Source: Verrucomicrobiota bacterium | Lineage (GTDB): Bacteria > Verrucomicrobiota > Verrucomicrobiia > Opitutales > Opitutaceae | Direction of reading: 5' to 3' | Assembly (NCBI GenBank): GCA_016235555.1 | Contig: JACRKC010000020.1 | Location: 1 to 64,000, forward strand | Length of the DNA: 64,000 nucleotides | Shown: positions 9,622 through 63,986 of the stretch, piece by piece | How the letters are laid out: the number at the start of each line of letters is the position of its first letter | Numbering within the stretch: position 1 is the stretch's first letter | Notes under the pieces: model-generated | Databases searched by the model: none | Told to the model about the DNA's origin: nothing | Seen by the model: the letters and a program-made list of their open reading frames with translations, nothing else | Translations under genes and position numbers: made by a program

Positions 9622-9840
9622 TCAGGATTGAGCGGACTCGCCGTCGCGCCGGACGCGCCGGCTCACGCCGTAGGCGAGGAGCACGAGACCGCCGAACGCC
9701 AGCAACTGGCCGCCGACCGTGCAATAGAGGCGGGCGGGCGAACCGAGAGAAGGCGCGACGACGCGCGCCAACGCCACGCCGGCGAGCGCGACGAGCGTGC
9801 CGGCGATCCAGAAGCGGGCGTTGGCGGCGACGGTTTTCAT
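9622..9840 (-). CDS. Small two-TM membrane protein
   Basis: ATG 9840 gives 72 residues with two hydrophobic segments (FWIAGTLVALAGVALARVV and LLAFGGLVLLAYGVS) and a basic tail. The frame remains open upstream to 10050, but that part is a palindromic repeat and is not counted. The stop is 9 bp from birA, so it is probably co-transcribed. No family is recognised. Placement in a membrane decarboxylase cluster makes an accessory role possible, but this is a guess. Confidence 0.65.
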   Translation of the reverse strand: MKTVAANARFWIAGTLVALAGVALARVVAPSLGSPARLYCTVGGQLLAFGGLVLLAYGVSRRVRRDGESAQS

Positions 9841-9844
9841 TCTC

Positions 9845-47934: not shown

Positions 47935-48792
47935 ATGCTTGCATCACCGATTCCGAGGGAAAGCCTGCTCCATGTCGTCAAGACCCTGCCGGCTGCGCCC
48001 CAAATCCTGTCACGGCTCGGGCAACTGCTCCTCGATCTTGATTCGGAGTTGGAGGACATCGTCGCGATGCTGCGCCGGGATACGGCGCTCACGGCGCTGA
48101 TCATGCGCGTGGCCAACAGCGCGGCCTTCAATCCCGGGGTGCCGTTTGCCTCGATGGAGGAGGCGTTGGCGCGCGTGGGGCTCTCCGAGGTTTACCGCCT
48201 GACCGGGTTTGCGGCCGTGGCGCAACTCGCCGACCGCAACCTCGCGCTTTATGGTTATGCCGGGGCGCAGCTGCGGGAAAACTCGCTGCTGACCGGCCTC
48301 GTCATGGAGGCGCTGGCCCGCAAGGTCCGCGTCGATCCGCGGATGGCCTATACGGCCGGATTGTTGCGATCGACCGGCAAGATCGCGCTGGACCGGTTGA
48401 CGCGGTTTCCGGGGCAGGTCAACGCCTACGGCCGGGTCGACTACGTGTCGCGCGGCAAGGGTCCGCTGGCGGCGTGGGAGACTGATTTTGTCGGACTGAG
48501 CAATTGTGAGGCGGCGGCGATCATCCTCGAGTGCTGGCACTTTCCGGAGCGCACCATCGCGGCGATTCGCGATCATTACGCGCCGCAGGCTGACTCCCCG
48601 CCGCTGGCGACGCTGCTCAACCTGGCTGCGGGCGCCGCCGAGCGCTGCCGCCACGGATTGCCCGGGGAGCATTTCTACTGGGGGGATCTGCCGGAGAAGC
48701 TGGCGTTCGTCGGGTTGGATTCCGACGCGCTCGATCAGGCGACGCGTCACGCGTTGCAGGTTTTCGGTCCGATCCGGGCGGCGTTGGGGTGA
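47935..48792 (+). CDS. HDOD-domain protein
   Basis: 285 residues from ATG 47935, with AAGGGGAG upstream as ribosome-binding site. The HDOD pattern is clear: LPAAPQILSRLGQLL at the start, RDTALTALIMRVANSAAFNP, YTAGLLRSTGKIALDRL in the middle where the degenerate HD site lies, and CWHFPERTIAAIRDHY late. HDOD proteins are signalling helpers without phosphodiesterase activity. It lies near the two hybrid kinases but is separated by 1.2 kb and faces away. Partner unknown. Confidence 0.9.
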   Translation: MLASPIPRESLLHVVKTLPAAPQILSRLGQLLLDLDSELEDIVAMLRRDTALTALIMRVANSAAFNPGVPFASMEEALARVGLSEVYRLTGFAAVAQLADRNLALYGYAGAQLRENSLLTGLVMEALARKVRVDPRMAYTAGLLRSTGKIALDRLTRFPGQVNAYGRVDYVSRGKGPLAAWETDFVGLSNCEAAAIILECWHFPERTIAAIRDHYAPQADSPPLATLLNLAAGAAERCRHGLPGEHFYWGDLPEKLAFVGLDSDALDQATRHALQVFGPIRAALG

Positions 48793-48908: not shown

Positions 48909-50477
48909 TTAGCGCAAATTCAGCGCCAGCGTGACGAGCTCGCTGCTCTCGTCGAGCAGTTGCGGCCAGAGTTCCGCGTCGACTTCGTTGAATCGCACCA
49001 GATGCGGCACGATGCGCCGGCGGTAGTGGCCGAAAACGAGATGGCACCGTTGGTCGCGGAATGGGCGGGCGAGCAACTCCGCGCCACGCTGGATCTGGCC
49101 CGCCTCGAAGGCGGCGCGGGCCTGGGCCACCCACTCGGCGGCCTGGGTGGCCGCCGCGGTGATCGTGGTGCGTGCCATGCGCCAGTCGCGTTCGCACACC
49201 GAATCGGGCGTCGCGAGCATGCTGAGCGGCGCTTCCTTGGCGCGGTCCGGCTCCGGAATCAGCCATGACGAGGGATGGATCACGGTGGTGTTGCGCAGCC
49301 GGGCGCCGCGGTCGGTGACGTTGAAAAGAATCCCGGCGGGCGATTCGGCGCACTTGGAATCGAGCGCCTGCCATTCGCGGTTGCGGAGGATGGGGGCCTC
49401 CGGGTGGTGGTTGCCGGGCTCCCGGGTGCAGTGGTTATCGAACGAGAAATCGATCTGCCGGGCGGCCTCGACGAGGTTGGGACGGTGGGGCCGCTTCAAT
49501 GGAGGCCTGCCGTCGACGGCGTGGTCCAAGCCGAGAAGATAAATCGGGCCGCAGCCAAAATGGAGCGCCAGGGCGAGGGCGGTGATCCCGGCGTTTTCCT
49601 CGACGGTGATCTGGGTCTTGGGCACGCCGGCTTCCGCGAGCCGATCCTCGGTCAACTGCCGGCCCGAGAGAAAGTGCAGCTTGTGCTCCGAGACCGAGTA
49701 TTGCCAGTCGGACGGGCTGCCGCTGCCAAGGATCACCCGGCCGGCGGAGGCATGGCCGGGGGTGAGGCAATGTTCCGGCGACGTGCAGGCGTCGACGGAC
49801 ACGGCGAAATCGGCCGTGACGCCGACCCGGGCCAGCGCGCGCAACGTCGAATCCGCGGCAAAAATAACCGCGCGATCCGCGAGATGTTTCAGGCCGGGCA
49901 GCGACGCGTCGAGCGAGGGGCCCGCGCCGCAGACGATCGCGGCCTGGCCGGCGAGAGCCCCGGCCCAGCGGGGTGGGACGCGACGGTGGGCGTAGGCTGC
50001 GAGATTGGCGAGCACGTGGCTTTGCCGGCGGAAACCGTTCTCTGGCCGCGTGGTGCGGGCGCGCTGATGCGACTCAAACTGCGCGGCGATCAGCGCGATG
50101 ACGGGTCGGTAACACCCGCCGGACTCGCTCCGCACGTCTTCGGCGACAATCACGGCGGGCAGGTGGAGGGTGTCGCGCCGGATGAGATCATCGAGGGCGG
50201 CGATCGTCCGATCGGGGTCGTGGTGCGGCACTGGTTCGATGCGAACGCGGCCCGGGTCGATCCCGGGAGGCCCGCCGGCCGGCGTCGGCTGGCGGGTGAA
50301 CCACAAGACTCCGCGATAGCGGCCGAGATCGACTTCGTCGGCATCGATGGCTCCGACCACGACGCACGTTTGGGCACCGGGCGAAAGGTGCGTCAGTGAA
50401 TCGACGCCAGGCATCCCCCGATCACCGGGACTTGGCGCAGCGAGTGCCATCGGGGTCAGTAGAGTCTCCATGCCCAT
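48909..50477 (-). CDS. DUF115/MptE-like, motility-accessory-factor-type glycosyltransferase
   Basis: 522 residues from ATG 50477. The central domain holds AIVCGAGPSLDASLPGLKHL, VIFAADSTLRALARVGVTAD and ALALALHFGCGPIYLLGLDH, the pattern of the DUF115 (6-hydroxymethylpterin pyrophosphokinase MptE-like) family that includes Maf proteins, which attach nonulosonic-acid sugars to flagellin. The C-terminal ~130 residues are helical. No flagellin gene is in the window, so the target protein is unknown. It opens the glycosylation locus and is divergent from the GT41-like gene. Confidence 0.82.
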   Translation of the reverse strand: MGMETLLTPMALAAPSPGDRGMPGVDSLTHLSPGAQTCVVVGAIDADEVDLGRYRGVLWFTRQPTPAGGPPGIDPGRVRIEPVPHHDPDRTIAALDDLIRRDTLHLPAVIVAEDVRSESGGCYRPVIALIAAQFESHQRARTTRPENGFRRQSHVLANLAAYAHRRVPPRWAGALAGQAAIVCGAGPSLDASLPGLKHLADRAVIFAADSTLRALARVGVTADFAVSVDACTSPEHCLTPGHASAGRVILGSGSPSDWQYSVSEHKLHFLSGRQLTEDRLAEAGVPKTQITVEENAGITALALALHFGCGPIYLLGLDHAVDGRPPLKRPHRPNLVEAARQIDFSFDNHCTREPGNHHPEAPILRNREWQALDSKCAESPAGILFNVTDRGARLRNTTVIHPSSWLIPEPDRAKEAPLSMLATPDSVCERDWRMARTTITAAATQAAEWVAQARAAFEAGQIQRGAELLARPFRDQRCHLVFGHYRRRIVPHLVRFNEVDAELWPQLLDESSELVTLALNLR

Positions 50478-50870: not shown

Positions 50871-53216
50871 ATGCCCTCACCCGTCATGCTTAGTCCAGAT
50901 TGCGTCGTCCCTTTTGCCCCCGCCTCTGACTCGATGGAACCGCTGGATGCGCTGGAGGCGTCGCTGGCGGAAGTAACCGGATCGCCCATCACGCCGGAAA
51001 GCCTGGCGCGACATGTCCGCTTCCGCCGCGCCGCCGCGAAGTTTGTCGCCGGCTTGTCGAAGCGCGACGCGCGCGGACCGGCCGTGGCGCGCGTGACCGA
51101 TCTGGCCAAACGGCTGCTGGCGGCGCCGGCGATTTACGATCGGGCCATCGACACCGAAGACGCGCACTGGTTGGAGACGGCGAGCGATGGCAAATGGCCG
51201 GCGTTGCTGGGCGCGATGCTGCTGGCACCGGCGTGGCAGTGGCCGAAGGCGCCGTTGTTCGGGGCGGTGCCGGACTGGCTCTGGGCGGACTACGCGGCGT
51301 GGATCTTCACGCCGCCGCGGCAGTGTCACCAGACGGGTGATGCGGACCGCTATGCGGCGCACGTGGCGCGGCACCTCGACGAATTGAACCGCTGGTTGAA
51401 GCGGAACCCCGGCTCGCCGGTGGTGCGCGCCGCGGCCGGGGCTTACGTGCGCGTGTCCAGCGTGATTCCGATGCGATGCGCGGAGGGCGACCGGCGCCGC
51501 GCCCAGGCGTTGCGCGGCGAATTTCTCGCGCGGTTCCATGCCGGCGGCCTCGCGGCGCCGGTGATCGCGCCGACCCCGCGCATCGGCCGGCGTCTGCGTG
51601 TCGGCTTTGTGGACACGCGTTTCGGCCCCGGGGCCGATCTTCGCGCGGTCCGGCCGGCCTTTGCCCAACTGGACCCGCGCAGTTTCGAGACGCTGGCGTT
51701 TTCGCTGGCGCAGGATGAGGACGAGTTTGCCCGGCGGAGCGAGAGATCGGTTCCGACCGTGGAGGTGTTGCCGCCCGGTCTGACGGAGCAGGTCGCGGAA
51801 TTGCGTTCCCGCCTGCTCGATGTGGTGGTCTATGGCGGCGATGTCGCGAGCCGCCTCGGCGACATCACCCGGCTCGCGTCGCAGCGAGTGGCTCCGTTGC
51901 AGGTCGTGAACGATCGTTCGGGCCTGACCTCCGGGCTGCCGGAGATCGAACTTTATGTGATGGGCGACCGGCCGGATGCCGCCGAGGTGTCGGCGGAATT
52001 CACCGAGCGCCTGGGCCTGTTGCGCGGTCCCGCGCACTCGTTCGTGCTGCCCGCGGCTGGCGAGCCGGCCGGCGGTGAGAATCCGCGCGTCGCGCTCGGT
52101 CTGCCGGCCGGTGTGACGCTGTTCAGCGCCGTGGTGACGGCCACGGGCGTCCCGGTGGAGACCCTGGAAAAATGGGCGCGGGTGCTCGCGCGTTGTCCGG
52201 AGTCGCGCCTCCTGATCGCGCGAATCGCGGACGAGTTGGAGCCGGATGCCGCGGCAGGTGTCGCGTCGTTTTGCGCCGCGATGGATGGCCAGCTCGCGAC
52301 GCACGGCGTGGACGCGGAACGCGTTTCGGTCTTTCCGGTGCCGACGGGAGCCATCGACGAAGTGCGGACGCTGCTGCGGATCGCGGACATCTATCTGGAC
52401 TCATCGGATGGCAGTGAAACCACCTGGTTGGCCGAGGCGCTCGTGCAGGGCCGGCCAGCGGTTGTGACAGGTTCCGGCCGGCAGGCGCGGCGCGCCGCCA
52501 CGGCCGGGATGGCCGCGGCGCTCGATTTGTCCGGCCTCATCGCGCCGGATGCCGAATCGTTTGTGCTACTCGCGGCGAAACTCGCCGCCGATGCGCCGGC
52601 CCGCCAGAACGCGGTCACGGCGATCAAGGCCGCGGTCGGTGCGGGTCCCGGTTTCCTCGACGAACTCGCGGCGAGCGACGCCTTCGGGGCGCTGCTCGAG
52701 ACGGCGTTCGACGAACTCGCGGCGCTCGGGCTCGCGGCGTTTCGCACGCAGCGCGAGCCGTTGCGGTGTTTTGCGCCGGAGGAGGTCGCCGGGTCGGTCG
52801 CGGCGGGCGAAGCCGCCCTGGCGGCCGGCGATCACGAGTCGGCGTCAACCGAGGCGGCGCTGGCGCTGCGCGCGGATCCGCTGAACTCCGCCGCGCGGAT
52901 CTTGCGCGGCCGGGCGCTGCTCGCCGAAGGCGAGGCGGCCCGCGCGGTCACGTATTTGCTGGCCGCGGTGGAGCGCCGCCACGACGACGCGGAACTCTGG
53001 TTCACGCTGGCGACCGCGCTGCGCCAAAACCAACAGGCGGCCGCGGCGATCCAGGCGCTCGAAGCCTCGCTTCGGCTGGACCGCACGCGCGTGGACGCCT
53101 GGCTGCTGTTGCTGGACATGGCCGGGAGCGCCAACGCGGCCGATCTCGTCCGCGACGCCCGCGAGGCGTTGCAGCAGATCGCGCCGGACGACCCGCGCGT
53201 GCTGGCGTTGGGCTGA
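50871..53216 (+). CDS. GT41-like (OGT/SPINDLY-type) glycosyltransferase with C-terminal TPRs
   Basis: 781 residues from ATG 50871; a GTG 30 bp upstream is possible. After a helical N-terminal part (to ~230) comes a GT-B-like domain with RLRVGFVDTRFGPGADLRAV and VAPLQVVNDRSGLTSGLPEI, which matches the R-x-AP-x-Q-x...G...TSG-l region of O-GlcNAc-transferase relatives, and DIYLDSSDGSETTWLAEAL with the nucleotide-sugar-binding end. Residues ~640-775 are TPR-like Ala-rich helices (AGEAALAAGDHESASTEAAL). It probably glycosylates proteins. 17 bp before the fusion gene. Confidence 0.78.
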   Translation: MPSPVMLSPDCVVPFAPASDSMEPLDALEASLAEVTGSPITPESLARHVRFRRAAAKFVAGLSKRDARGPAVARVTDLAKRLLAAPAIYDRAIDTEDAHWLETASDGKWPALLGAMLLAPAWQWPKAPLFGAVPDWLWADYAAWIFTPPRQCHQTGDADRYAAHVARHLDELNRWLKRNPGSPVVRAAAGAYVRVSSVIPMRCAEGDRRRAQALRGEFLARFHAGGLAAPVIAPTPRIGRRLRVGFVDTRFGPGADLRAVRPAFAQLDPRSFETLAFSLAQDEDEFARRSERSVPTVEVLPPGLTEQVAELRSRLLDVVVYGGDVASRLGDITRLASQRVAPLQVVNDRSGLTSGLPEIELYVMGDRPDAAEVSAEFTERLGLLRGPAHSFVLPAAGEPAGGENPRVALGLPAGVTLFSAVVTATGVPVETLEKWARVLARCPESRLLIARIADELEPDAAAGVASFCAAMDGQLATHGVDAERVSVFPVPTGAIDEVRTLLRIADIYLDSSDGSETTWLAEALVQGRPAVVTGSGRQARRAATAGMAAALDLSGLIAPDAESFVLLAAKLAADAPARQNAVTAIKAAVGAGPGFLDELAASDAFGALLETAFDELAALGLAAFRTQREPLRCFAPEEVAGSVAAGEAALAAGDHESASTEAALALRADPLNSAARILRGRALLAEGEAARAVTYLLAAVERRHDDAELWFTLATALRQNQQAAAAIQALEASLRLDRTRVDAWLLLLDMAGSANAADLVRDAREALQQIAPDDPRVLALG

Positions 53217-53233: not shown

Positions 53234-56200
53234 ATGCGCATCCTTTTCTCCACCGGATCCCCGGCAGGCTACATGGCGCCGCCGCGGCTCAGCGACGACC
53301 AGATCAACTGCGGCCCCCACTGGATCGATCGCGAGATCGGCGGGCAGTTCGTTTCGCTCGGCACGCCCGGCGGCGAATACGATCTCGCCCGCATCGCCGC
53401 GCGCCTGCCCGGCGATCAGCAGCCCGACGCCGTGGTGTGCCTCGTCGATTCGGCGCGCTGCTCGGTGCCGCGCAACCTGCGCGCCTTTGACTGCCCGAAA
53501 ATCCTGCTGGTGGCCGACACGCATCACCTGACGGCGCCGATCGCGAACATGGTGCACTATGCGCTGAGCGAACCGTTCGATCGCGTCGTGCTGCTCTACG
53601 ACCGGCATCACGAGGAGTTTTTTCGCGCGGCCGGCGTCCGGCGTCTCCACTGGTTTCCCGGCCTGACGTTTCCGCATGGCGACGCCGCGGTCGCGGCCGC
53701 GCGCACGACGTCCGCGCCGCTGCCGCGACTCGCCTTTGTCGGCACGACGGGGATCTGCCACACCCGGCGGACGCAACTGCTCACGCAGTTGAACGCCCAC
53801 GGCCTCCCGCTCACCGTGGCGGGGCTCTCGCAGCGCGAGGCGCTCGGCTTTTACGGGGCCTCGCTCGTGGGCTTCAACGCCTCGTTGAACGGCGATCTCA
53901 ATCTCCGCGTGCTCGAGATCCTGGCCAGCGGGGCCATGCTGTTGACGGACACGCTGACGCCCGCCGCGGGACTCACCGACGTCTGGCAGCCGGGCAGGGA
54001 ACTGCTGACCTACGCCACGCCCGCCGAGATGGTCGAGCGTGCGCAGTGGGCCATCGCGCATCCGATGGAGGCCCGGGCGATCGGCCGGGCGGGCGCGCAG
54101 TGGTTCGACACGCATTTCAATGAGGCCGCCCGCCGCGCGGCCTTCCAGGTGCTGGTGACCGACGGCATCGACCGGCCGGAATTTGCCCTGCCGACGCGGA
54201 CGACTTTCAGCGCGAGTCGTCCGGTCCCGGCGCTGATCGCCGCGTTCGAATACGTGCAGGAACTGCACCGCAACCTCGACCGCGTCGTGGTGGCGCTCGA
54301 CGACAGCGTGCCGGAGGCGTTCGCCCAGATGTGCGTCACGCTGCCGCGGATCGAGATCCGGCGCGGGCTGCCGGCGAAGGGGCAGCGGGTCGACTTCCTG
54401 GCGGTGGGGCGGAAAAATTTCACCACACCGGACCTGATCGCGGCGGCGCACGTGTGGTGCTGGGAGGGCGGGGAGCGCGACCGCGTGGCCCTCGTCCAAC
54501 GGTGCACGAGCATGGGCTTCGCGCTGATCGACACGGCGCGGCTGATCTTCAGCCGGCGGCGCGTCAACACCCATACGAATCTCGGCGCGCTCGCCTTGGT
54601 GCGGCTCGAGCAGGGTGCGTATAACGAAGCCCTCGGCTTCGCGAAGGAAGAGCTGGCGAAGAACCCCAAGTCGGCCGACGCACTCATGGCGATGATCGAG
54701 GTCGCGCAGGAGACCGGCAACACGCCCGTCCTGCAGGCGCTGCTGGCGAAACTGGCGGTGCTTGCGCCCCACCATCCGCGCCGGCACCAGATTCTCGCGG
54801 CGTCGCCGGCGTCGATTCGCGCCCGGCGGACCACGCGGCTGTTGCGCGACGCGCAGGCCTCGCTCGAGCAGCGGAAATTCGCCGACGCGCGCAAACTGGC
54901 GAACGAAGCGCTGACGTTCGACGCGAAGTCCGCCGCCGCGCACAGCCTCCTCGGCCGCACCCTCGCGATCGAGGGCGATTTCGGGCCGGCGGTGAACCAC
55001 CTGCAGGTCGCGGCGCATCTGGCGCCGGAGAATCCGGATCACTGGCTTGAACTCGGCTTCGCGTTGCGCCGCCTGGACCGCGCGTCGGATGCGATGGGCG
55101 CGTTCCTGGCCGCCTCGGCCCTGGCGCCGGCGGAATTCGCCACGCAACTCGCGCTGGGCGACGCCGCCCTGGCCGCCGGCCACGGCCCGATCGCGATGGA
55201 GGCGCTGACGGAAGCGTGCCGCCTGCAGCCCGGGCACGCCGCGGCGGCGCGCTGGCTGGACCGGGCGCGCGAGCTGGCGCGGACCGGGGATTTTGCGGCG
55301 CCGCGCGATCTGCTGTTGTCCCACGTGGAAGTCACCCGCCTCCAGGGCACCGGCGTGTTGCTGGAGCGGTTTTTTCCGAACGCGGACGGGTTCGTCACCG
55401 TGCGCTCGCGCACGCTCTACCAGGGCAAGGTCGACTTTGGCGGCGTTCACTACTCGCTCGATCTGCCGGGCCTGCCGGAGGCCGCGCGCCGCGAAGTGCT
55501 GCGTCGCGTGCTGGCGCCCTACCGCATCCGCCGGATTCTCTGCGTGCCGTTTTTTGCGTCGGACTTCATGCACGGTGTCGCCGCCCGCGAACTCACCGGC
55601 GCGCCACTCTGCACCTACGTGATGGACGACCAGGTGCTGCACGCGAAGGACGTGCCGCAGGAACTGGCGCAACGGCTGTTCGCCGCGAGCGACCTGCGCC
55701 TGGCGATCTCGCCGGAGATGGTGGCGGAGTATTCCGCCTGGTTCGAATGCCGCTTCGGCCTGCTGCCGCCCATCGTCGTGTCGACCGCGAACGAAGCGCC
55801 GAACGTCCCGCCGGGTTCCCCCGCGACGCCGGTGCGGTGCGCGATGGTCGGCAACATCTGGTCGGCGAAACAATTCGAACAGCTCCGGACGATGACGCGG
55901 GCCGCCGGCCTCGCGGTGGACTGGTTCGGCAACGCCAGCGTCGCGTGGCTGCCGCAGGACCGGGCCGAACTGGAGCGCGATGGAATTTTCCGGCAGGGCT
56001 TCCTGCCGGAGGAGCAACTCGCGCCGCGGCTGGCCCGTTATCCGTTCGTGGTGATTCCGAGCGGCGCGCTCGACGGCACGGAGGACAACGAGTGGCTGAC
56101 GCGCCTGAGCCTGCCTTCGCGGATGGTGTTCATTCTCACGAAAACGTTCACGCCGATGTTGATTCTCGGCAGCCCCAAGACCGCGGCGGCGGCGTTCGTC

Positions 56201-57913
56201 AACCGGTTCGGGGTGGGGGCGTCGGCCGGCTACGACGCCGCGGAGGTGCAGGCCCGGATCACCGAGCTGACCTCGCCCGCGCGCGGGCGCGAGCTGCGCG
56301 ACAACGCGCGGCGGCTGGCGCCGTGCTTTCTCCTGCCTGACGCCGGCGAATGGATCTGGCGGTCCCTGGCGGCGAAACAGGCCGGACCGGCGCCGTTCGA
56401 TCCGCTCTACCGGCGGGCGGAGAGCGTCGCGAGTGAGCCACCGGCCGCGACGCCGGAAGAGCAGCGGGAATCGTTCACGCAGAAACTGGACGCGATCATT
56501 CCAAAACTTTCGGACTACGCGTTCCTGGACAGTCACCTGCCGCCGGAGGAGCCGCGCCAGCAGGCCGACATCCGGGGGGCGGTGCGATTCCTGCACCACG
56601 CGCTCGCCGGTTTCGGTGCGCTGCCCAACCGCCTGCGCGCAATCGAGCGCCTCGCGATCGTGGCGCCGAATCACCGCGGCGTGCTCGTGGCCTGGGCGGA
56701 ATTGCTGGAGGAGTCCGGCGACCGGCCCGCGGCGGCGGTGAAGGCGCGCAAGGCCCTGGCGCTGTTCTACGACGATGTCCACACGCAGACGCTCTTCATG
56801 CGCTGCGCCGGCGAGGTGAATCATCACGCGACGAACGGCCAGGAGCTGTTCTGCGCCCGGCCCTTCCAGAATTTTGAAATTTATCAGGACGGCTCCACCC
56901 ATGTCTGCAACTGCACGTGCGTGCCTTTTTCGGTGGGCAACGCGATCCACCAGACGGCGGAGGAAATCTGGCAATCGCCGGCCGCCCGGGCGATCCGCGC
57001 CTCGATTCTCGACGGCTCGTTTCGCTTTTGCGCCCCGATGACGTGCCCGTGGCGCTTCGACCTGCCGAAACGCGCGGAGCGCCCGGCCGAATTCGAACGG
57101 CTCAAGCAGATCGGGATCGATGGCACCGGCCAGCAACCGAAGCACCTGAACCTGTCGTATGACCGCTCGTGCAACCTCTCGTGTCCGTCCTGCCGCACCG
57201 AGCTGCTGATGGCCGACGACGCGCAGCGACGGAAGAACGACGGGATTCGCGATCGGGTGGTCCTGCCGCTGCTGGAGACGGCGGAGACGGTCTACATCAC
57301 CGGATCGGGCGACGCCTTTGGCAGTCCCCATTTTCGCGGCATCCTCCGGCAGCTCTGCGAGCCGAAATACGAGAACGTGGAGATCCACCTCGGCACGAAC
57401 GGGCAGTTGATCACGCCCCGGTTGTGGGCGGAGATCCAGCCGCTGCACGCCCGGTTCCGCGAAATCATGATCTCGATCGATGGCGCGACGCCGGAGACGT
57501 TCGAGCGACTGCGGCGCGGATCCACGTGGGAAAAACTGCTGCGCACGATGGACATTTTACAGCAGGCGCGCCGCGCGAACGCCATCCGCCGGTTGAGGAT
57601 CAACATGGTCGTGCAGACCGCCAATTTCAGGGAGATGCGCCCGCTCCTGGCGCTCGGCCGGCAATGGGCCGTCGACACCGTGTGCTTTTACCGGCTGCGG
57701 CAGTGGGGCAACTATGTGCCCGCGATCTACCTAGCCAGCGACATCGCGAATCCACTCCATCCGCAGCACCGCGAACTGCTCGCCGAACTGGCGCATCCGG
57801 ACTTCGCCGATCCGATCGTCGACCACTACGACATGTATGAGCTGATCGCGAAGGCCCAGGCCGCGCGTGGTGCCCGGCGGACCGAGCCCGTGTTGGAACC
57901 GCTGGTGGCCTGA
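53234..57913 (+). CDS. 1,559-residue fusion: CgeB-like GT, TPRs, second GT, SPASM-like and radical SAM
   Basis: One uninterrupted frame from ATG 53234. Approximate order: 1-315 CgeB/GT-B-like domain (VGFNASLNGDLNLRVLEILA, GRELLTYATPAEMVERA); 315-445 an uncharacterised alpha/beta part; 446-690 TPR-type helices (AAHSLLGRTLAIEGDFGPAV); 695-1050 a second GT-B-like domain (VPFFASDFMHGVAARELTGA, RCAMVGNIWSAKQFEQLRTM); 1050-1200 helical linker; ~1205-1280 a SPASM/twitch-like Cys-rich part (CARPFQNFEIYQDG, VCNCTC, FCAPMTCPW); 1300-1530 radical SAM with C1313-x3-C1317-x2-C1320 (CNLSCPSC) and MISIDGATPETFERLRRG. Such a union of glycosyltransferase and radical chemistry suggests combined sugar and peptide (or sugar) modification. 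Product unknown. Confidence 0.85.
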   Translation: MRILFSTGSPAGYMAPPRLSDDQINCGPHWIDREIGGQFVSLGTPGGEYDLARIAARLPGDQQPDAVVCLVDSARCSVPRNLRAFDCPKILLVADTHHLTAPIANMVHYALSEPFDRVVLLYDRHHEEFFRAAGVRRLHWFPGLTFPHGDAAVAAARTTSAPLPRLAFVGTTGICHTRRTQLLTQLNAHGLPLTVAGLSQREALGFYGASLVGFNASLNGDLNLRVLEILASGAMLLTDTLTPAAGLTDVWQPGRELLTYATPAEMVERAQWAIAHPMEARAIGRAGAQWFDTHFNEAARRAAFQVLVTDGIDRPEFALPTRTTFSASRPVPALIAAFEYVQELHRNLDRVVVALDDSVPEAFAQMCVTLPRIEIRRGLPAKGQRVDFLAVGRKNFTTPDLIAAAHVWCWEGGERDRVALVQRCTSMGFALIDTARLIFSRRRVNTHTNLGALALVRLEQGAYNEALGFAKEELAKNPKSADALMAMIEVAQETGNTPVLQALLAKLAVLAPHHPRRHQILAASPASIRARRTTRLLRDAQASLEQRKFADARKLANEALTFDAKSAAAHSLLGRTLAIEGDFGPAVNHLQVAAHLAPENPDHWLELGFALRRLDRASDAMGAFLAASALAPAEFATQLALGDAALAAGHGPIAMEALTEACRLQPGHAAAARWLDRARELARTGDFAAPRDLLLSHVEVTRLQGTGVLLERFFPNADGFVTVRSRTLYQGKVDFGGVHYSLDLPGLPEAARREVLRRVLAPYRIRRILCVPFFASDFMHGVAARELTGAPLCTYVMDDQVLHAKDVPQELAQRLFAASDLRLAISPEMVAEYSAWFECRFGLLPPIVVSTANEAPNVPPGSPATPVRCAMVGNIWSAKQFEQLRTMTRAAGLAVDWFGNASVAWLPQDRAELERDGIFRQGFLPEEQLAPRLARYPFVVIPSGALDGTEDNEWLTRLSLPSRMVFILTKTFTPMLILGSPKTAAAAFVNRFGVGASAGYDAAEVQARITELTSPARGRELRDNARRLAPCFLLPDAGEWIWRSLAAKQAGPAPFDPLYRRAESVASEPPAATPEEQRESFTQKLDAIIPKLSDYAFLDSHLPPEEPRQQADIRGAVRFLHHALAGFGALPNRLRAIERLAIVAPNHRGVLVAWAELLEESGDRPAAAVKARKALALFYDDVHTQTLFMRCAGEVNHHATNGQELFCARPFQNFEIYQDGSTHVCNCTCVPFSVGNAIHQTAEEIWQSPAARAIRASILDGSFRFCAPMTCPWRFDLPKRAERPAEFERLKQIGIDGTGQQPKHLNLSYDRSCNLSCPSCRTELLMADDAQRRKNDGIRDRVVLPLLETAETVYITGSGDAFGSPHFRGILRQLCEPKYENVEIHLGTNGQLITPRLWAEIQPLHARFREIMISIDGATPETFERLRRGSTWEKLLRTMDILQQARRANAIRRLRINMVVQTANFREMRPLLALGRQWAVDTVCFYRLRQWGNYVPAIYLASDIANPLHPQHRELLAELAHPDFADPIVDHYDMYELIAKAQAARGARRTEPVLEPLVA

Positions 57914-58175: not shown

Positions 58176-59216
58176 TCAGCGGAAGAATGCGGAGCGCGCC
58201 TTCGCGCCCCGGGCCGGCGGCGCGGGCGCGGCGCTCGTGCGCTGTTGCGCGAAATGCGCGAGCCACTGTTCACGCTCGGTCTGAAGCTTGGCGATCAAGG
58301 CGGACTGGTGCGCGAGCTGGCGCTGGAGGTCGGTGGTGGCCTCGAGTTTCGCGCGCTCGGCGTCGTCGTGGAGGAGAATCATCCGCTGGAACATCTCGGC
58401 CTGGGCCAGCGTTTCGGCGCCGTAGTGGGTGCGGAAATGCGGGTCGTTGAGGAGGAGCCGATAGCGGCTGAGCAGTTCGAGGATTTGTTCGAGGCGCGAT
58501 TTGCTGGTCCAGACCCCGTTGCGATGGCGGCGGTAGGCGGCCATGCAGCGGTCGATGAAACCGAGTTTGCCGTGCGCGGTGATGACGAGGTCGAAGAAGA
58601 AGTCGCACGAACGCTGCAGATACCACGCCGGCGGATCACGAAACGCGTCGCGCCGGTAGACGAGGGAGCAGGTCGCGTATTTGCTCATCAGATCCACGAG
58701 GCAGTCGCGCCGGTCGTATTGCTCCTGGATCTTCGGCTTTTGGGATTTGAAGTAATGCGGATCGGTTTCGCGGCCGTCGCCGTCGACGACGGTGGCTTCG
58801 TGGAAACAGCCCACGCATTCGGGGTGGGCCCGCAGGTAGGCGACCTGGGTTGCGAGTTTTTCCGGGTCCGTCCAGTAGTCGTCGCCCTCGCAGAGCGCGA
58901 CGAATTCGCCGCGGGCGGCGGCGAGCGTGGCGACGAGATTGTGGGTGCCGCGCGGCCGGCCGTCGACATACACGACGTCGGCCCGCCGCTGGAGCAACAG
59001 CCGGATGCGCTCGGGATGGGCGCGGGCGAGTTCCTGGCAGATCTCGCGGGTGCCGTCGGAGGAATCATCCTCACCGATCAGAATTTCGCACGGAAACCCG
59101 GTCTGCTGCGCCAGCATGCCTTCGACGCACTGGCGGATGTAGGCCGCGTGCTGGTAGGTGATGATGCAGATGCTCACCAGGGGAACGGGAGCGGGGGACT
59201 GGGTGGGCGCGGGCAT
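58176..59216 (-). CDS. Family 2 glycosyltransferase
   Basis: 346 residues. GT-A start VSICIITYQHAAYIRQCVEG with EILIGEDDSSDGT, and FVALCEGDDYWTDPEKLATQ with the metal-binding DD and acceptor region. The C-terminal ~70 residues form a coiled-coil-like tail (LQRQLAHQSALIAKLQTERE). Transfers a sugar from a nucleotide donor to an unknown acceptor. It is the last gene of the minus-strand block and lies 15 bp from the methyltransferase. Confidence 0.92.
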   Translation of the reverse strand: MPAPTQSPAPVPLVSICIITYQHAAYIRQCVEGMLAQQTGFPCEILIGEDDSSDGTREICQELARAHPERIRLLLQRRADVVYVDGRPRGTHNLVATLAAARGEFVALCEGDDYWTDPEKLATQVAYLRAHPECVGCFHEATVVDGDGRETDPHYFKSQKPKIQEQYDRRDCLVDLMSKYATCSLVYRRDAFRDPPAWYLQRSCDFFFDLVITAHGKLGFIDRCMAAYRRHRNGVWTSKSRLEQILELLSRYRLLLNDPHFRTHYGAETLAQAEMFQRMILLHDDAERAKLEATTDLQRQLAHQSALIAKLQTEREQWLAHFAQQRTSAAPAPPARGAKARSAFFR

Positions 59217-59231
59217 GCGGACGGAAATGGA

Positions 59232-60095
59232 CTAGATGGTGGTCGCGATGATCAGCGGCCGGCGGTGAAACTCGCCCGGAAAGCGCGCGAGATTCGCCGC
59301 GCGAAAGAAGTCGGCAACCTCCGCGCCGGCGGCTCGCCCGGTGTGCATCGCGGCGAGGAGGGCGGGCGGTGCGTCGCGAAACTCGATGCCGCCGCCTTCT
59401 CCGACTTGCGCGTAACCGACGTGCGCCGGCTGCCAGCCGGATTCACGCAGGACGAGCGCCAGCCACGCAAGCCGGGCCGCGTCGTCATCGTAGGCGTGGA
59501 GCGGGCGCCGCTTGTCGCCGCCGCGATTCGAGCCGGCTTGAAACACGAGCTGGCGGCAGCGGTGGCGCAGGCGGGCGAGATACGCGATGGCGTGGGCGGT
59601 GAAGGCCGCGTTGGTGTCCGCCACCTGCGGATCGAAGTCGAAGCCCGCGTGGTGGAGGACATTCAGCAGCAGCATGACGTCATACGCGGGGAGCCGTGCG
59701 AGGCCGGCCAGATCGCAGGACTCGGCCCGGACCACGATCCGGTCGAGCGCGAAGGCTTCGGCGGTGAGCCGGATGAACTCGGCGTGACGCGGGTTCATCT
59801 CGTAGGCCTCGATCGCGAGGTCCGGACGCGTCCGGGCGAGGTTGAGGCTGAAATAGCCGGTGTTGGCGCCGATGTCCGCGACGCGCGCCCCGATGGTGAG
59901 GTCGAGGCGGGCGAGGAGATAGTCGTAGCGCGGCTGGTCGCTGCGCCACAGCGAGTGGATTTCCTCCTGATAGCCGAGGGCGCGGGCGACGAAGACCGGC
60001 ACGCTCTGATAAACGGAGTGCTTCGACGAGTCGTGATAAAGCTGATGCAGCCGGGCGACGAGATCGGCGGCGGGCGGTGCGGCGAGGACGCTCAT
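59232..60095 (-). CDS. SAM-dependent methyltransferase
   Basis: 287 residues from ATG 60095, overlapping the ATP-grasp stop (ATGA). Motif I reads RVADIGANTGYFSLNLA, followed by IEAYEMNPRHAEFIRL with the acidic residue that holds the ribose, and VMLLLNVLHHAGFDF as motif IV. The fold is a class I Rossmann methyltransferase; substrate is probably a sugar or sugar-linked intermediate, inferred from neighbours. Confidence 0.87.
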   Translation of the reverse strand: MSVLAAPPAADLVARLHQLYHDSSKHSVYQSVPVFVARALGYQEEIHSLWRSDQPRYDYLLARLDLTIGARVADIGANTGYFSLNLARTRPDLAIEAYEMNPRHAEFIRLTAEAFALDRIVVRAESCDLAGLARLPAYDVMLLLNVLHHAGFDFDPQVADTNAAFTAHAIAYLARLRHRCRQLVFQAGSNRGGDKRRPLHAYDDDAARLAWLALVLRESGWQPAHVGYAQVGEGGGIEFRDAPPALLAAMHTGRAAGAEVADFFRAANLARFPGEFHRRPLIIATTI

Positions 60096-61273
60096 GCGAT
60101 GGCGGGCAGCTGCGGTGGCGGGACGATCGCTCCCGTGCGTGCGGAGGCCGGCTGGCGGGCGGCGCGGCGCTCGTGCAGGAACTGCCGCCACGAATCCGGC
60201 CGCAGATAAACGTCCGAACGGCAGTGCCGAAGGAGGGTGAGAAACCCGGACCCCGGCGGCCGAACGTGCCAGGCGAGCGAGGCTCCGGGGATCACGCCGC
60301 CGAGCCAGAGGTAGTGCGGGAGATCACGCGGAGGCCGCGCGGCCAGCGGGGCCGGGGCGGTGCCGGTGTGTTCGGCCAGATAGTTGGCGAGCAACCGGGG
60401 ACAGCCGTCGACGCACAACTGCAACGGGCCCCAGAGCCGCGGGTTCGCCTCGATCAGGACAAATTCGGATCCGCGCTGGCGCAGTTCGAGCATCACCAGG
60501 CCGTGGAATCCCGTGGCGCGCAACATGGCCTCCCAGCGGCCGGCTTCAGGCGTCCGGTGAAGATCGGCGGCGCGGGCGAGCACCATGGATTTGCCGCCGG
60601 GTTGTTGCGCCAGGTTTTCCTGTGAATAGCGCGTGGCGGCTCCGTGTGCCGGCAGGTGAAAGAGCAGATAAAAACTGCGCCCTTCGACCCACTCCTGGAA
60701 AAAGAAATCCTGGGGCCGGGCCTCGGCCGCGAAGCGCGCCAGGTCGGCGGGCGTCCGGAGCAGCCAGGGATAAAGCGAGCGTCCATCCGGCGCGACGTTC
60801 CACCGCGGTTTCGCGACGCACGGAAGCGTGGCGGGCGACGCCTCCGGGATTTCGGCGGGCACGGGCAAACCGAACCCGCGGCAGAACGACGTGAGCGAGG
60901 CTTTTTCCGTGACCCGGAAATACGTCGCGGCGTCGGGCAGCGGGAGATCGCAGCCGGCGGACTCGAGGGCGGTGCGATGCTGGAGCGCCCAGCGGACCAG
61001 ATACTCCGAGGCCGGGGCGAGCACGCACCGCGCCGCACCCGTGTGCGATCGCGCCAAGGCGGTCGCGGCGGCGAATTGCACGACGTCGAGTTTGTGGCCC
61101 GGCCGCAGGTAGACGACATTGCGCGCATAACGCGTGCGAAAGATCGGATCGTCGCGCGTGCACGCCACGATGGCGATGGGCAGACGCGCAAGGCGCAACG
61201 CCCGGCAGAAGGCGAGCACGGCGCGGAAATTGTAGCCGCTCGGAACGAGGAAGACGCGGGACGGCGCGGTCAT
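60092..61273 (-). CDS. ATP-grasp enzyme, carbamoyl-phosphate-synthase-like
   Basis: 393 residues from ATG 61273, which overlaps the aminotransferase stop by four bases. An N-terminal Rossmann-like part (VFLVPSGYNFRAVLAFCRAL) is followed by the ATP-grasp fold: LPCVAKPRWNVAPDGRSLYP for nucleotide, FFFQEWVEGRSFYLLFH, and VLIEANPRLWGPLQLCVDG with the Mg-binding Glu/Asn. These enzymes ligate a carboxylate to an amine. Next to a sugar aminotransferase, an amide-forming step on an amino sugar is plausible. Confidence 0.84.
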   Translation of the reverse strand: MTAPSRVFLVPSGYNFRAVLAFCRALRLARLPIAIVACTRDDPIFRTRYARNVVYLRPGHKLDVVQFAAATALARSHTGAARCVLAPASEYLVRWALQHRTALESAGCDLPLPDAATYFRVTEKASLTSFCRGFGLPVPAEIPEASPATLPCVAKPRWNVAPDGRSLYPWLLRTPADLARFAAEARPQDFFFQEWVEGRSFYLLFHLPAHGAATRYSQENLAQQPGGKSMVLARAADLHRTPEAGRWEAMLRATGFHGLVMLELRQRGSEFVLIEANPRLWGPLQLCVDGCPRLLANYLAEHTGTAPAPLAARPPRDLPHYLWLGGVIPGASLAWHVRPPGSGFLTLLRHCRSDVYLRPDSWRQFLHERRAARQPASARTGAIVPPPQLPAIA

Positions 61274-62403
61274 AGGTGCACGACGCGACCGGGTGCGGCC
61301 AGGCTGTCCAGCAGCAGATCGGCGATGCGGTATTGCACGGCGGCGGTGACGTCGGCGGACATCGGCAGGCAGAGGATCCGCGTCGCGATGTCCTCGGCGA
61401 CCGGGCAGCACGAGGTGCTTTTCAGATACGCCAGGCGGTTCAGCGACGGAAAGAAATACCGGCGGGCGCGGATGCCGCCGGCCTCGAGGCGCGTCATGAC
61501 CGCGCGCAGGGTCGCTTCCGACGGCAGGATCACCGGGCAATAGGCGTAGTTGTGGCGGAAACCCTGCGACTCCGCCGGCGGCGCCGGCAGTTCCAGAAAC
61601 GAATCGGCGAGCAATTCGTGGTAGCGTTGGAATTGTTCCTGACGCTGGGCGATGATGCCGGCGACGCGCGGGAGATTGCAGAGGCCCATCGCGGCGTGCA
61701 GTTCGGAATTCTTGCCGTTGATGCCGACGCAGCGATGATCGTCGCCGAACTGGCCGAAGGCGCGCGTCAGCTTGACCCGCTCGGCGAGGACATCGTCGCC
61801 GTTGATGACGACGGCGCCGCCCTCGACGGTGTGAAAAACCTTGGTCGCGTGAAAACTCAGGCAGCTGACATCGCCGTAGCTCGCGAGCGAGCGGCCGTCC
61901 AATTCGCAGCCGAATGTGTGTGCGGCGTCGTAGATCAGCTTGAGCCGGTGTTCGCGGGCGAACGCCTGCAGCGCGTCGACGGCGCACGGGAACCCATAGA
62001 CGTGCGTCGCGAGGATGGCCGACGTGCGGGGCGTCAGGGCCGCGGCCAGCTTGCGCGGATCGATGGTCAGGGTGGCGCGATCGATGTCGACGAAGACGGG
62101 CGTGGCGTTTTGCCAGAGCACGGCGCCGGTCGTCGCCACGTAGCTGAACGGGGTGGTGAGCACCTCACCGGTGACATTGGCGGCGTGCAGGGCGAGTTGG
62201 AGCGCGATCGTGCCGTTGCTGACGAACCAGACGTGCCGGGCCCCGAGCCGGTCGCGAAGCCGGGCTTCGAGTTCGCGCAGCAGCGGGCCGTTGTTGGTCA
62301 GGTGATGCGACGACCAGATCTTTTCGAGGTAGGCCACGTATTCCGCCAGCGGTGGCAGACTGGTCTTGGTGACGGTGATCTCGGCGGGGGTCACGGGGAG
62401 CAT
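61270..62403 (-). CDS. DegT/DnrJ/EryC1/StrS-type sugar aminotransferase
   Basis: 377 residues from ATG 62403, which gives the usual family length; the frame stays open upstream but without domain features. PLP-fold marks: FVSNGTIALQLALHAANVTG, TPFSYVATTGAVLWQNATPV, the Asp in YDAAHTFGCELDG, and the PLP Lys in LSFHATKVFHTVEGGAVVI. It makes amino sugars such as 4-amino-4,6-dideoxyhexoses from keto-sugar nucleotides. First gene of the four-gene minus-strand block. Confidence 0.92.
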   Translation of the reverse strand: MLPVTPAEITVTKTSLPPLAEYVAYLEKIWSSHHLTNNGPLLRELEARLRDRLGARHVWFVSNGTIALQLALHAANVTGEVLTTPFSYVATTGAVLWQNATPVFVDIDRATLTIDPRKLAAALTPRTSAILATHVYGFPCAVDALQAFAREHRLKLIYDAAHTFGCELDGRSLASYGDVSCLSFHATKVFHTVEGGAVVINGDDVLAERVKLTRAFGQFGDDHRCVGINGKNSELHAAMGLCNLPRVAGIIAQRQEQFQRYHELLADSFLELPAPPAESQGFRHNYAYCPVILPSEATLRAVMTRLEAGGIRARRYFFPSLNRLAYLKSTSCCPVAEDIATRILCLPMSADVTAAVQYRIADLLLDSLAAPGRVVHL

Positions 62404-62891: not shown

Positions 62892-63986
62892 ATGAATCCG
62901 ACCGCGGACCCGATGGCGGCGCAGCCGCCCACGGAGCGTCGGCGGACGATTCGCGTCTGCTACTTCAACACCTGGGCCAGGGAACTGGAGGACGCGCGCA
63001 CCTATGCCGATCGCGCGGCGGCGATCGAGCTGGCACCGCTGGTGTCGGATCCGCGCGATCCGGCGTTGTTGCGCAAGGCCCGGCTCGATTGCGACTGGTA
63101 TGGGGAGAACGCGCGCTGTTTCGCGGCGATGCGGCACGACGGCCTGGAATTTCTGCCGGCGTGGGTGAGCGGTCCGCCGGGATTGATCGAGCTGGCCCGG
63201 CAGCCACGGGAACCCGGCGAGGAGCGCTGGCTGATCACGATGGGGCAGCAACCGCAGGCGTTGAAGACGGCGGCGGGGAAAGTCTTCGCACTGCTCGCGA
63301 AGTCGGGCGTAAGGCACCTGCTCTATGCGTTCGACGAGGCGAGCCGCACCATGGCCTGCTTCAACGACGTCGCGCCGCACCTGGACGTCCTGATTCACGA
63401 CGAGTGGCCGCTGGTCGAGGCGGGGCGCGCGCGGCTGCGGCCGGGGTGTCGCACGCTGCACCGGAGCTGGGTGGCGAATCTCGTGCCGTGGGCGGCGCCG
63501 TTCAACGAGGCGCCCGAGGAGAAAATCATTTTTCTCGGTTCGCAGCTCGGCCTCACGCCGCACCGGCGGCGGCAGATCGAGTTTCTGCGGCAGACGTTCA
63601 AGGACCGGTTTGTCGCGAGCCATGATCACTCGGTGAGCGTGGCGGAGCGGTTTTCGCTGAATCGTTTCAAGGTCAGCGTGTGCCCGGAGGGCCGGCACTT
63701 CGCGTCGCCGGCGATGAGCCGCTCGCACACCGACCGGCCGTTTTGGTCGGGCTGCCTCGGGATGGTGCCGGTGGCGGAGAACTCGAAGGCGGGGGGCCGG
63801 CTCGATGAACTGGCGGCCGCGGGTTTGATTCTGCGTTACGCGCACGGGGATGGCAAAGCGCTCGTGGCGGCGTGCGAGCGTGCGCTGGCGATGGGTGCCG
63901 ACGAGCGCCGCCGGATCCACGAGCACTTCAACCGGCGCGAAACCGTCGGCACCGTGGTGGCGGAGATGATCGCGGCGGAGGGGTAG
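62892..63986 (+). CDS. Putative glycosyltransferase, exostosin/GT-B-like C-terminus
   Basis: 364 residues from ATG 62892; an ATG at 62850 in frame is possible. The N-terminal part (RRTIRVCYFNTWARELEDAR) has no clear family. The C-terminal half has KVSVCPEGRHFASPAMSRSH followed by FWSGCLGMVPVAENSKAGGR, like the C-terminal nucleotide-sugar lobe of exostosin-type enzymes (pattern C-P-E-G...S-R...W-S-G-C...P-V). It is divergent from the sugar-modification block. Acceptor unknown. Confidence 0.6.
   Translation: MNPTADPMAAQPPTERRRTIRVCYFNTWARELEDARTYADRAAAIELAPLVSDPRDPALLRKARLDCDWYGENARCFAAMRHDGLEFLPAWVSGPPGLIELARQPREPGEERWLITMGQQPQALKTAAGKVFALLAKSGVRHLLYAFDEASRTMACFNDVAPHLDVLIHDEWPLVEAGRARLRPGCRTLHRSWVANLVPWAAPFNEAPEEKIIFLGSQLGLTPHRRRQIEFLRQTFKDRFVASHDHSVSVAERFSLNRFKVSVCPEGRHFASPAMSRSHTDRPFWSGCLGMVPVAENSKAGGRLDELAAAGLILRYAHGDGKALVAACERALAMGADERRRIHEHFNRRETVGTVVAEMIAAEG

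Follow-up and report, generated by a model that had tools for sequence, protein, structure and literature searches.

A fusion of two glycosyltransferase domains, TPRs and a leading-twitch radical SAM unit, encoded near flagellin genes in Opitutaceae

A single predicted protein that carries two glycosyltransferase (GT) domains, a TPR block and a radical SAM unit poses the question of what these parts would act upon together, and of which chemistry the radical SAM part would contribute. Such a protein is encoded in the window analysed here (the whole 64,000-nucleotide stretch, positions 1 to 64,000 of contig JACRKC010000020.1 from an Opitutaceae genome), and it offers a testable case: for an orphan radical SAM enzyme whose twitch domain leads, fusion and neighbourhood allow both the partner and the class of substrate to be read.

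Architecture of the fusion protein

The frame runs for 1559 residues without a stop (Table 1), and the same seven parts are collinear in one 1551-residue frame of one further Opitutaceae genome (G262, locus L043; 65% identical overall), bearing out the single gene that a sequence-only reading of this DNA had proposed. Between the two fusions the linker, twitch and core are 68-69% identical as protein, and in every domain identity is 71-85% at codon positions 1 and 2 and 44-57% at position 3; the signal is weaker in the junction after GT2, where 32 codons align (72, 66 and 62% at positions 1, 2 and 3). A frameshift or a chimeric gene was ruled out by the collinearity with L043 and by the concentration of changes at third codon positions. 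Gene calls came from a simple codon model and some starts are uncertain; ATG 53234 is the same Met that begins the aligned relatives L044, L046 and L047, and the codon model placed the start of the L043 frame, and in one of its two calls that of the window gene, at the next Met (13 codons downstream in the window).

Table 1. Features of the fusion gene and its neighbours (positions in the window; residues are those of the fusion protein)
Feature	Position	Strand	Basis
Fusion gene: GT1, segment without Pfam match, TPR, GT2, helical linker, twitch, radical SAM	53234-57913	+	Pfam, NCBIfam, relatives
GT1 domain, residues 1-310	53234-54163	+	PF13524 match at residues 190-300 (53801-54133), 59.7 bits, cut-off 25
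Segment, residues 311-440	54164-54553	+	No Pfam match; identity to relatives 62% down to 30%
TPR block, residues 441-685	54554-55288	+	Pfam matches below cut-off here, some above in L043 and L044
GT2 domain, residues 688-1060, GT-B fold	55295-56413	+	16-row alignment, AF2 model, Foldseek, Z scores
Helical linker, residues 1075-1190	56456-56803	+	AF2 helices; stays with the radical SAM part in split genes
Twitch/SPASM-like domain	56846-57058	+	Cys 1207, 1225, 1266 and 1271 invariant in 5/5 aligned sequences
Radical SAM core	57122-57793	+	Motif C1313-x3-C1317-x2-C1320; Pfam
Upstream gene, 760 residues (791 from 50841)	50934-53216	+	Weak GT41-like similarity and C-terminal TPRs
MptE-like/DUF115 (Maf-type) protein	48909-50477	-	PF01973, 83.2 bits, cut-off 34.6
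Four-gene cassette	58176-62403	-	Pfam; homologous cassette in flagellin region L124
Cassette: family-2 glycosyltransferase	58176-59216	-	PF00535
Cassette: methyltransferase	59232-60095	-	Weak methyltransferase matches in Pfam
Cassette: protein without Pfam match	60092-61273	-	Pfam search
Cassette: DegT-type aminotransferase	61270-62403	-	PF01041, 290.8 bits
'GT63', conserved flagellin-locus protein	62892-63986	+	No Pfam or NCBIfam match (start 62637 in that search)

The domains are separate neighbours elsewhere: in G249 (L044) a GT1-TPR-GT2 gene of 1097 residues and a linker-twitch-radical SAM gene of 523 residues overlap by 4 bases (9838-9841), with an assembly error possible there. The radical SAM unit of G106 (L045; 487 residues) starts 19 bases from a contig end, with its frame open to that end, and no GT2 match was found in that genome (86% complete). 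Being fused in two genomes and separate in G249, the radical SAM unit and its helical linker behave as a portable module.

That the protein carries two different GT-B domains was claimed on sequence grounds, and both glycosyltransferase claims stand because of the PF13524 match of GT1 (Table 1) and the structure matches of GT2. Residues 686-1065, which hold GT2, had no match in Pfam. The AF2 model of residues 688-1060, from an alignment of the window residues with 15 relatives, reached a pLDDT of 90.5, and Foldseek placed BshA and MshA, both GT-B glycosyltransferases, among its matches (E about 1e-10, TM about 0.6). Its best PDB match was HepE (Z 26.4, rmsd 3.9, 336 residues aligned; 4xsp_A is listed as an example at these values) and, among the matches listed (50 chains), every one lay at Z 21.8-26.4. 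In this model GT2 is a two-Rossmann GT-B fold, and its function as a glycosyltransferase beyond that fold is predicted. A GT2 segment unrelated to glycosyltransferases was ruled out by the GT-B fold (AF2, Foldseek, Z scores). The TPR matches of the window protein fall within residues 458-673, each below its Pfam cut-off, and some of these models score above cut-off in L043 and L044, which supports the TPR block of the earlier reading. TPRs are not universal among GT1-GT2 proteins: the flagellin-linked one at L051 (G243) has no TPR match by Pfam, and a TPR protein precedes its gene.

The radical SAM core (PF04055, residues 1312-1446, 35.3 bits against a cut-off of 29.5) also scored above cut-off in L043, L044, L045 and in a Paracoccus protein, and its CX3CX2C motif, as first read from the sequence, is invariant in all five of these sequences. 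The SPASM profile (PF13186) matched residues 1207-1267, i.e. N-terminal to the core, with 31.8 bits against a cut-off of 21.5 (31.7 in L043, 38.9 in L044 and 41.3 in L045; 16.8, below cut-off, in Paracoccus). The four auxiliary cysteines of this domain are invariant in the same five sequences, Paracoccus included; a fifth, C1227, is kept in the four Opitutaceae sequences only, and C1191, marked invariant in the alignment, sits at the cut end by a long Paracoccus gap and was left out of the count. A full SPASM domain has seven cysteines for two auxiliary clusters, and the pattern of four invariant cysteines fits a one-cluster twitch domain, not a full SPASM domain.

The placing of a Cys-rich domain before the core had been called unusual; unusual it is, but the point was overstated, as the NCBI model NF033640 already covers such an order. 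This model was the best NCBIfam match of the fusion protein (residues 1205-1516 to model positions 3-337 of 398), and in both the twitch domain precedes the core, whereas the fusion differs in its joined glycosyltransferases, in the helical linker in front and in its score, 78.9 bits where the cut-off is 170. An NF033640 search of 252 Opitutaceae genomes gave matches in 19, none above cut-off, and the three matches read as protein, L079, L082 and L084, carry their Cys-rich domain C-terminally, in the ordinary SPASM order (the L082 frame is without the core motif). At L015 (G008:C319) two twitch-first radical SAM frames lie in tandem, with stops between them.

The radical SAM part was modelled poorly by AF2 (four rows, pLDDT 54.1), the linker helices standing out with block pLDDT values that are mostly about 67-91 and drop once to 39. 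A search of PDB sequences with a profile of this part returned no radical SAM structure, the sole match being a ribosomal protein (E 0.8), and a single-sequence search returned viperin-type radical SAM chains at E 0.02-0.05, which is not significant.

Distribution of the parts

Among the 252 Opitutaceae genomes GT2 was found in 17 and a close radical SAM unit in four, namely the genome of the window and G249, G262 and G106 (the latter three 68-69% identical), with matches at only 28-30% identity in G008 and G207. GT1 and GT2 share one frame in nine of the 17 GT2 carriers (G000, which is the genome of the window, G262, G249, G168, G003, G061, G243, G209 and G098); GT2 is a separate gene of 472 residues in G197, stands without GT1 in proteins of about 640 residues in six carriers (G142, G178, G173, G004, G184 and G076), and gave a weak match (E 2e-9) in G216. 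These six proteins carry a C-terminal extension of about 250-300 residues, as seen at loci L050, L052, L053, L054, L055 and L056, where linkage to flagellin was not seen; a methyltransferase-like nature of this extension was considered and dropped, as Pfam matched it in none of them. In a sample of 387 genomes of the phylum only the genome's own match and one other (26% over about 190 residues) were found, and at E 1e-15 only the own match in an overlapping sample of 188 genomes of the class; no relatives were reported in phages or viral contigs.

This rarity (four of 252 genomes), the poor structure model and the separate gene in G249 would suit a radical SAM part that is a non-catalytic or electron-transfer accessory, or a fusion that is a recent functionless accident. 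Set against this are the three core and four auxiliary cysteines, invariant as far as Paracoccus, and the similarity of the two fusions across linker, twitch and core, where changes fall mostly at third codon positions, and we regard this explanation as very improbable.

Flagellin neighbourhood and the likely substrate

A Flagellin_N search of the genome of the window found two genes on the same contig past the window end (C117:64648-65046 and 65743-66141), both with Flagellin N and C domains; behind them lies a frame that has the N and C domains of FliD. The distance downstream from the fusion gene (radical SAM unit, gene to gene) to the end of the nearest flagellin gene is 6.4 kb, against 6.9 kb in G249 and 5.0 kb in G106; flagellin is therefore 5-7 kb away in three of the four radical SAM carriers, and in the fourth, G262, the contig ends. 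Seven of the nine GT1-GT2 proteins are encoded within 14 kb of flagellin (GT2 to flagellin 8.2 kb in G000, 9.0 in G249, 4.9 in G168, 13.1 in G003, 1.9 in G061, 4.9 in G243 and 3.7 in G209), and for the other two (G262 and G098) the flagellins lie on different contigs, the GT2 contigs of 23.5 and 11.8 kb being too short to decide linkage. The separate GT2 gene of G197 has a flagellin at 9.2 kb. None of the six GT2 proteins without GT1 was linked to flagellin, three of these cases being decidable (G142 and G178, with no flagellin match in the genome, and G004, with the nearest flagellin 0.89 Mb from GT2), while G173, G184 and G076 have flagellins on other contigs and may still be linked. The GT1-containing form is the form tied to flagellin (7/9 linked), the cases not being independent since the genomes are related. 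Since flagellin genes and fliD follow immediately beyond the end of the window, and such genes also adjoin relatives, the substrate is most likely flagellin, a target well supported by gene context.

A sample of 40 flagellin regions (11.5-19.9 kb, from 38 other Opitutaceae genomes, chosen from at least 134 flagellin-positive genomes among the 252) contained no GT2, and no radical SAM frame at E 1e-3 with a home-made profile of 11 sequences, which included those of the window and G168, so that their own recovery is no test, and whose sensitivity to unlike radical SAM proteins was not gauged. In 32 of the 40 regions homologues of GT1 and of the upstream protein were also absent at E 1e-10. Flagella can thus, in general, do without a radical SAM/GT2 modification. 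Some regions carry arrays of 7-9 flagellin frames, namely L106 (G183) and L113 and L114 (G234), and G234 has at least 15 flagellin matches.

The fusion gene had been said to follow a GT41-like TPR transferase directly and to share its locus with a DUF115 protein. The latter was confirmed by PF01973 (Table 1), the same protein scoring 32.6 bits against NF050051 (Maf/PseD; cut-off 670). For the former the TPRs and the position hold, the upstream gene ending 17 bases before the fusion gene, but the GT41 similarity is weak (PF13844, 23.3 bits, under the cut-off of 25). A homologue of this upstream gene lies directly upstream of the GT1-GT2 gene at L043, L044, L047, L049, L051, L057 and L058, and copies of 'GT63', perhaps a glycosyltransferase judging by its sequence, occur at L044, L045, L047, L048, L057 and L058 (61-71% identical). 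L043 and L045 have in common a run of four genes that follows the radical SAM unit, encoding a protein without a label, an NAD-dependent epimerase/dehydratase (PF16363), an RGP-like protein (PF03214) and another protein without a label. The DUF115 homologue of G249 is in two separate frames (L044:16546-17895, reverse strand) and possibly broken, or the result of an assembly error. HDOD-type regulators stand at locus edges, found by Pfam at 48067-48792 in the window and at L044:3110-3946, and by BLAST at L047:14599-15441 and L057:17439-18284.

DegT/GT cassettes are typical of polysaccharide loci, and the one between the fusion gene and the flagellin genes, with its family-2 glycosyltransferase, methyltransferase and aminotransferase, could serve a glycan other than that of flagellin, which counts against a flagellin reading. 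The fusion protein itself might build a different surface glycan (of the capsule, the lipopolysaccharide or another protein), with flagellin adjoining only by way of a shared glycan island. The six GT2 proteins without GT1 and without linkage to flagellin (three decidable) agree with this, as do radical SAM genes described from a Campylobacter capsule/methylation cluster (PMC8743553). Against it, the GT1-containing form is tied to flagellin wherever linkage can be decided, and flagellin-linked loci repeatedly carry the upstream TPR protein and 'GT63'; we consider such a role quite unlikely.

Proposed reaction and comparison with known systems

We prefer, with a probability of about 0.5, to read the fusion as a cytosolic flagellin O-glycosylation protein resembling FlmG, in which the radical SAM part edits a sugar. 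The TPR block and the TPR protein encoded upstream would hold flagellin before export, and GT1 and GT2 would add successive sugars to its Ser/Thr residues, presumably in that order. The twitch-radical SAM unit would then cleave SAM and abstract a hydrogen from a sugar carbon, the electron passing to the four-Cys auxiliary cluster, and the product would be a sugar that is oxidised, epimerised or edited in some other way, either in the glycan bound to flagellin or on its donor. That radical chemistry and glycosylation are coupled on a single substrate, as first suggested from the sequence, is plausible, while the radical reaction itself is a prediction. If true, radical chemistry would join flagellin glycosylation, and an unusual sugar would be predicted on the small, roughly 270-residue flagellins of Opitutaceae.

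A sugar is favoured as the radical SAM substrate because relatives of the unit lie among glycosyltransferases. The gene of the Paracoccus relative, a plasmid protein of 37-38% identity, overlaps a GT25 gene, with another glycosyltransferase gene behind it and a nucleotide-sugar dehydrogenase gene 3 kb upstream; genes unconnected with sugars, one of them of the caspase family, also occur nearby, and the gene table, which is incomplete, lists no flagellin within about 12 kb. A weaker relative in Ca. Manganitrophus (23%, E 2e-7) is located in a GT cluster. The radical SAM unit might instead modify the flagellin polypeptide near its glycosylation sites (by side-chain methylation, epimerisation, a crosslink or oxidation), sharing the substrate and not the sugar with the glycosyltransferases. 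Many of the SPASM/twitch papers found deal with enzymes that modify peptides, the locus is linked to flagellin, and FliB methylates flagellin lysines with a [4Fe-4S] cluster and SAM (PMC8598068). As FliB shows Fe-S/SAM chemistry on the flagellin protein we keep this alternative in view, but the closest free-standing relative found outside Opitutaceae adjoins glycosyltransferase genes with no annotated flagellin, as far as its gene table goes, and the Pfam search of the fusion and its relatives, which may miss small domains, showed no peptide-recognition domain; we hold it to be unlikely. The four invariant auxiliary cysteines likewise point to a sugar rather than a peptide, being as in the sugar-related twitch enzyme BtrN.

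Next to two flagellins, and directly behind the GT1-TPR-GT2 gene, G168 encodes a 1336-residue protein (L046:2333-6343, reverse strand) made up of an N-terminal radical SAM part, a polysaccharide pyruvyltransferase, a glycosyltransferase and TPRs. Like the fusion it joins radical SAM to glycan enzymes and TPRs beside flagellin genes; unlike the fusion, its radical SAM part is N-terminal and best matches other radical SAM families, and radical SAM thus seems to have been joined to flagellin-locus glycan enzymes at least twice. A bolder and rather doubtful extension of the preferred reading is a covalent assembly line, in which one polypeptide would hold the filament protein, build its O-glycan by means of both glycosyltransferases and then edit the protein-bound sugar by radical chemistry, the G168 protein being a second invention of the same kind. 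Radical SAM editing of a sugar in a protein-linked glycan is a type of reaction of which we know no example.

Among the closest known systems is FlmG of Caulobacter, part of a cytoplasmic pathway, whose TPR domain binds flagellins and whose GT-B domain glycosylates them (PMC7591256). The fusion likewise combines TPRs and GT-B domains in one protein, with flagellin as its neighbour where it is the target of FlmG; FlmG differs in having a single glycosyltransferase, N-terminal TPRs and 596 residues, with no radical SAM part in the description available (PMC7591256). The analogy does not reach the donor sugar: FlmG uses pseudaminic acid, whereas NeuB (PF03102) had no match in the genome of the window (98.6% complete; nine of 14 control genomes matched), making a nonulosonic-acid glycan on flagellin unlikely. 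BtrN, a twitch radical SAM enzyme which oxidises an amino-cyclitol in an antibiotic pathway, has a one-cluster domain with four Cys ligands, and the auxiliary cluster of MoaA is held by three (PMC9012708). By analogy, the four cysteines of the fusion fit a single, fully ligated auxiliary cluster like that of BtrN rather than that of MoaA. The fusion resembles BtrN in combining a radical SAM core with a four-Cys one-cluster domain, but this domain precedes the core, whereas SPASM/twitch domains are described as C-terminal extensions of it in the same source (PMC9012708); BtrN did not appear in the PDB sequence matches listed.

FliB of Salmonella, the [4Fe-4S] and SAM dependent flagellin lysine methylase which its authors compare with radical SAM enzymes, shares with the fusion Fe-S and SAM dependent chemistry (predicted here) and flagellin, but has a CX4CX3CC motif, methylates protein and, according to its authors, has no known domain (PMC8598068). 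Phase-variable radical SAM genes are reported in Campylobacter, with no function given in the part of the source available (PMC6321876). Among the papers listed in searches of the open literature, which mostly do not extend to subscription papers, none described a radical SAM enzyme that takes part in glycosylating flagellin. TPR-guided glycosylation of flagellin is itself already known, and the fusion is probably a new variant of it, to which a radical SAM part has been added.
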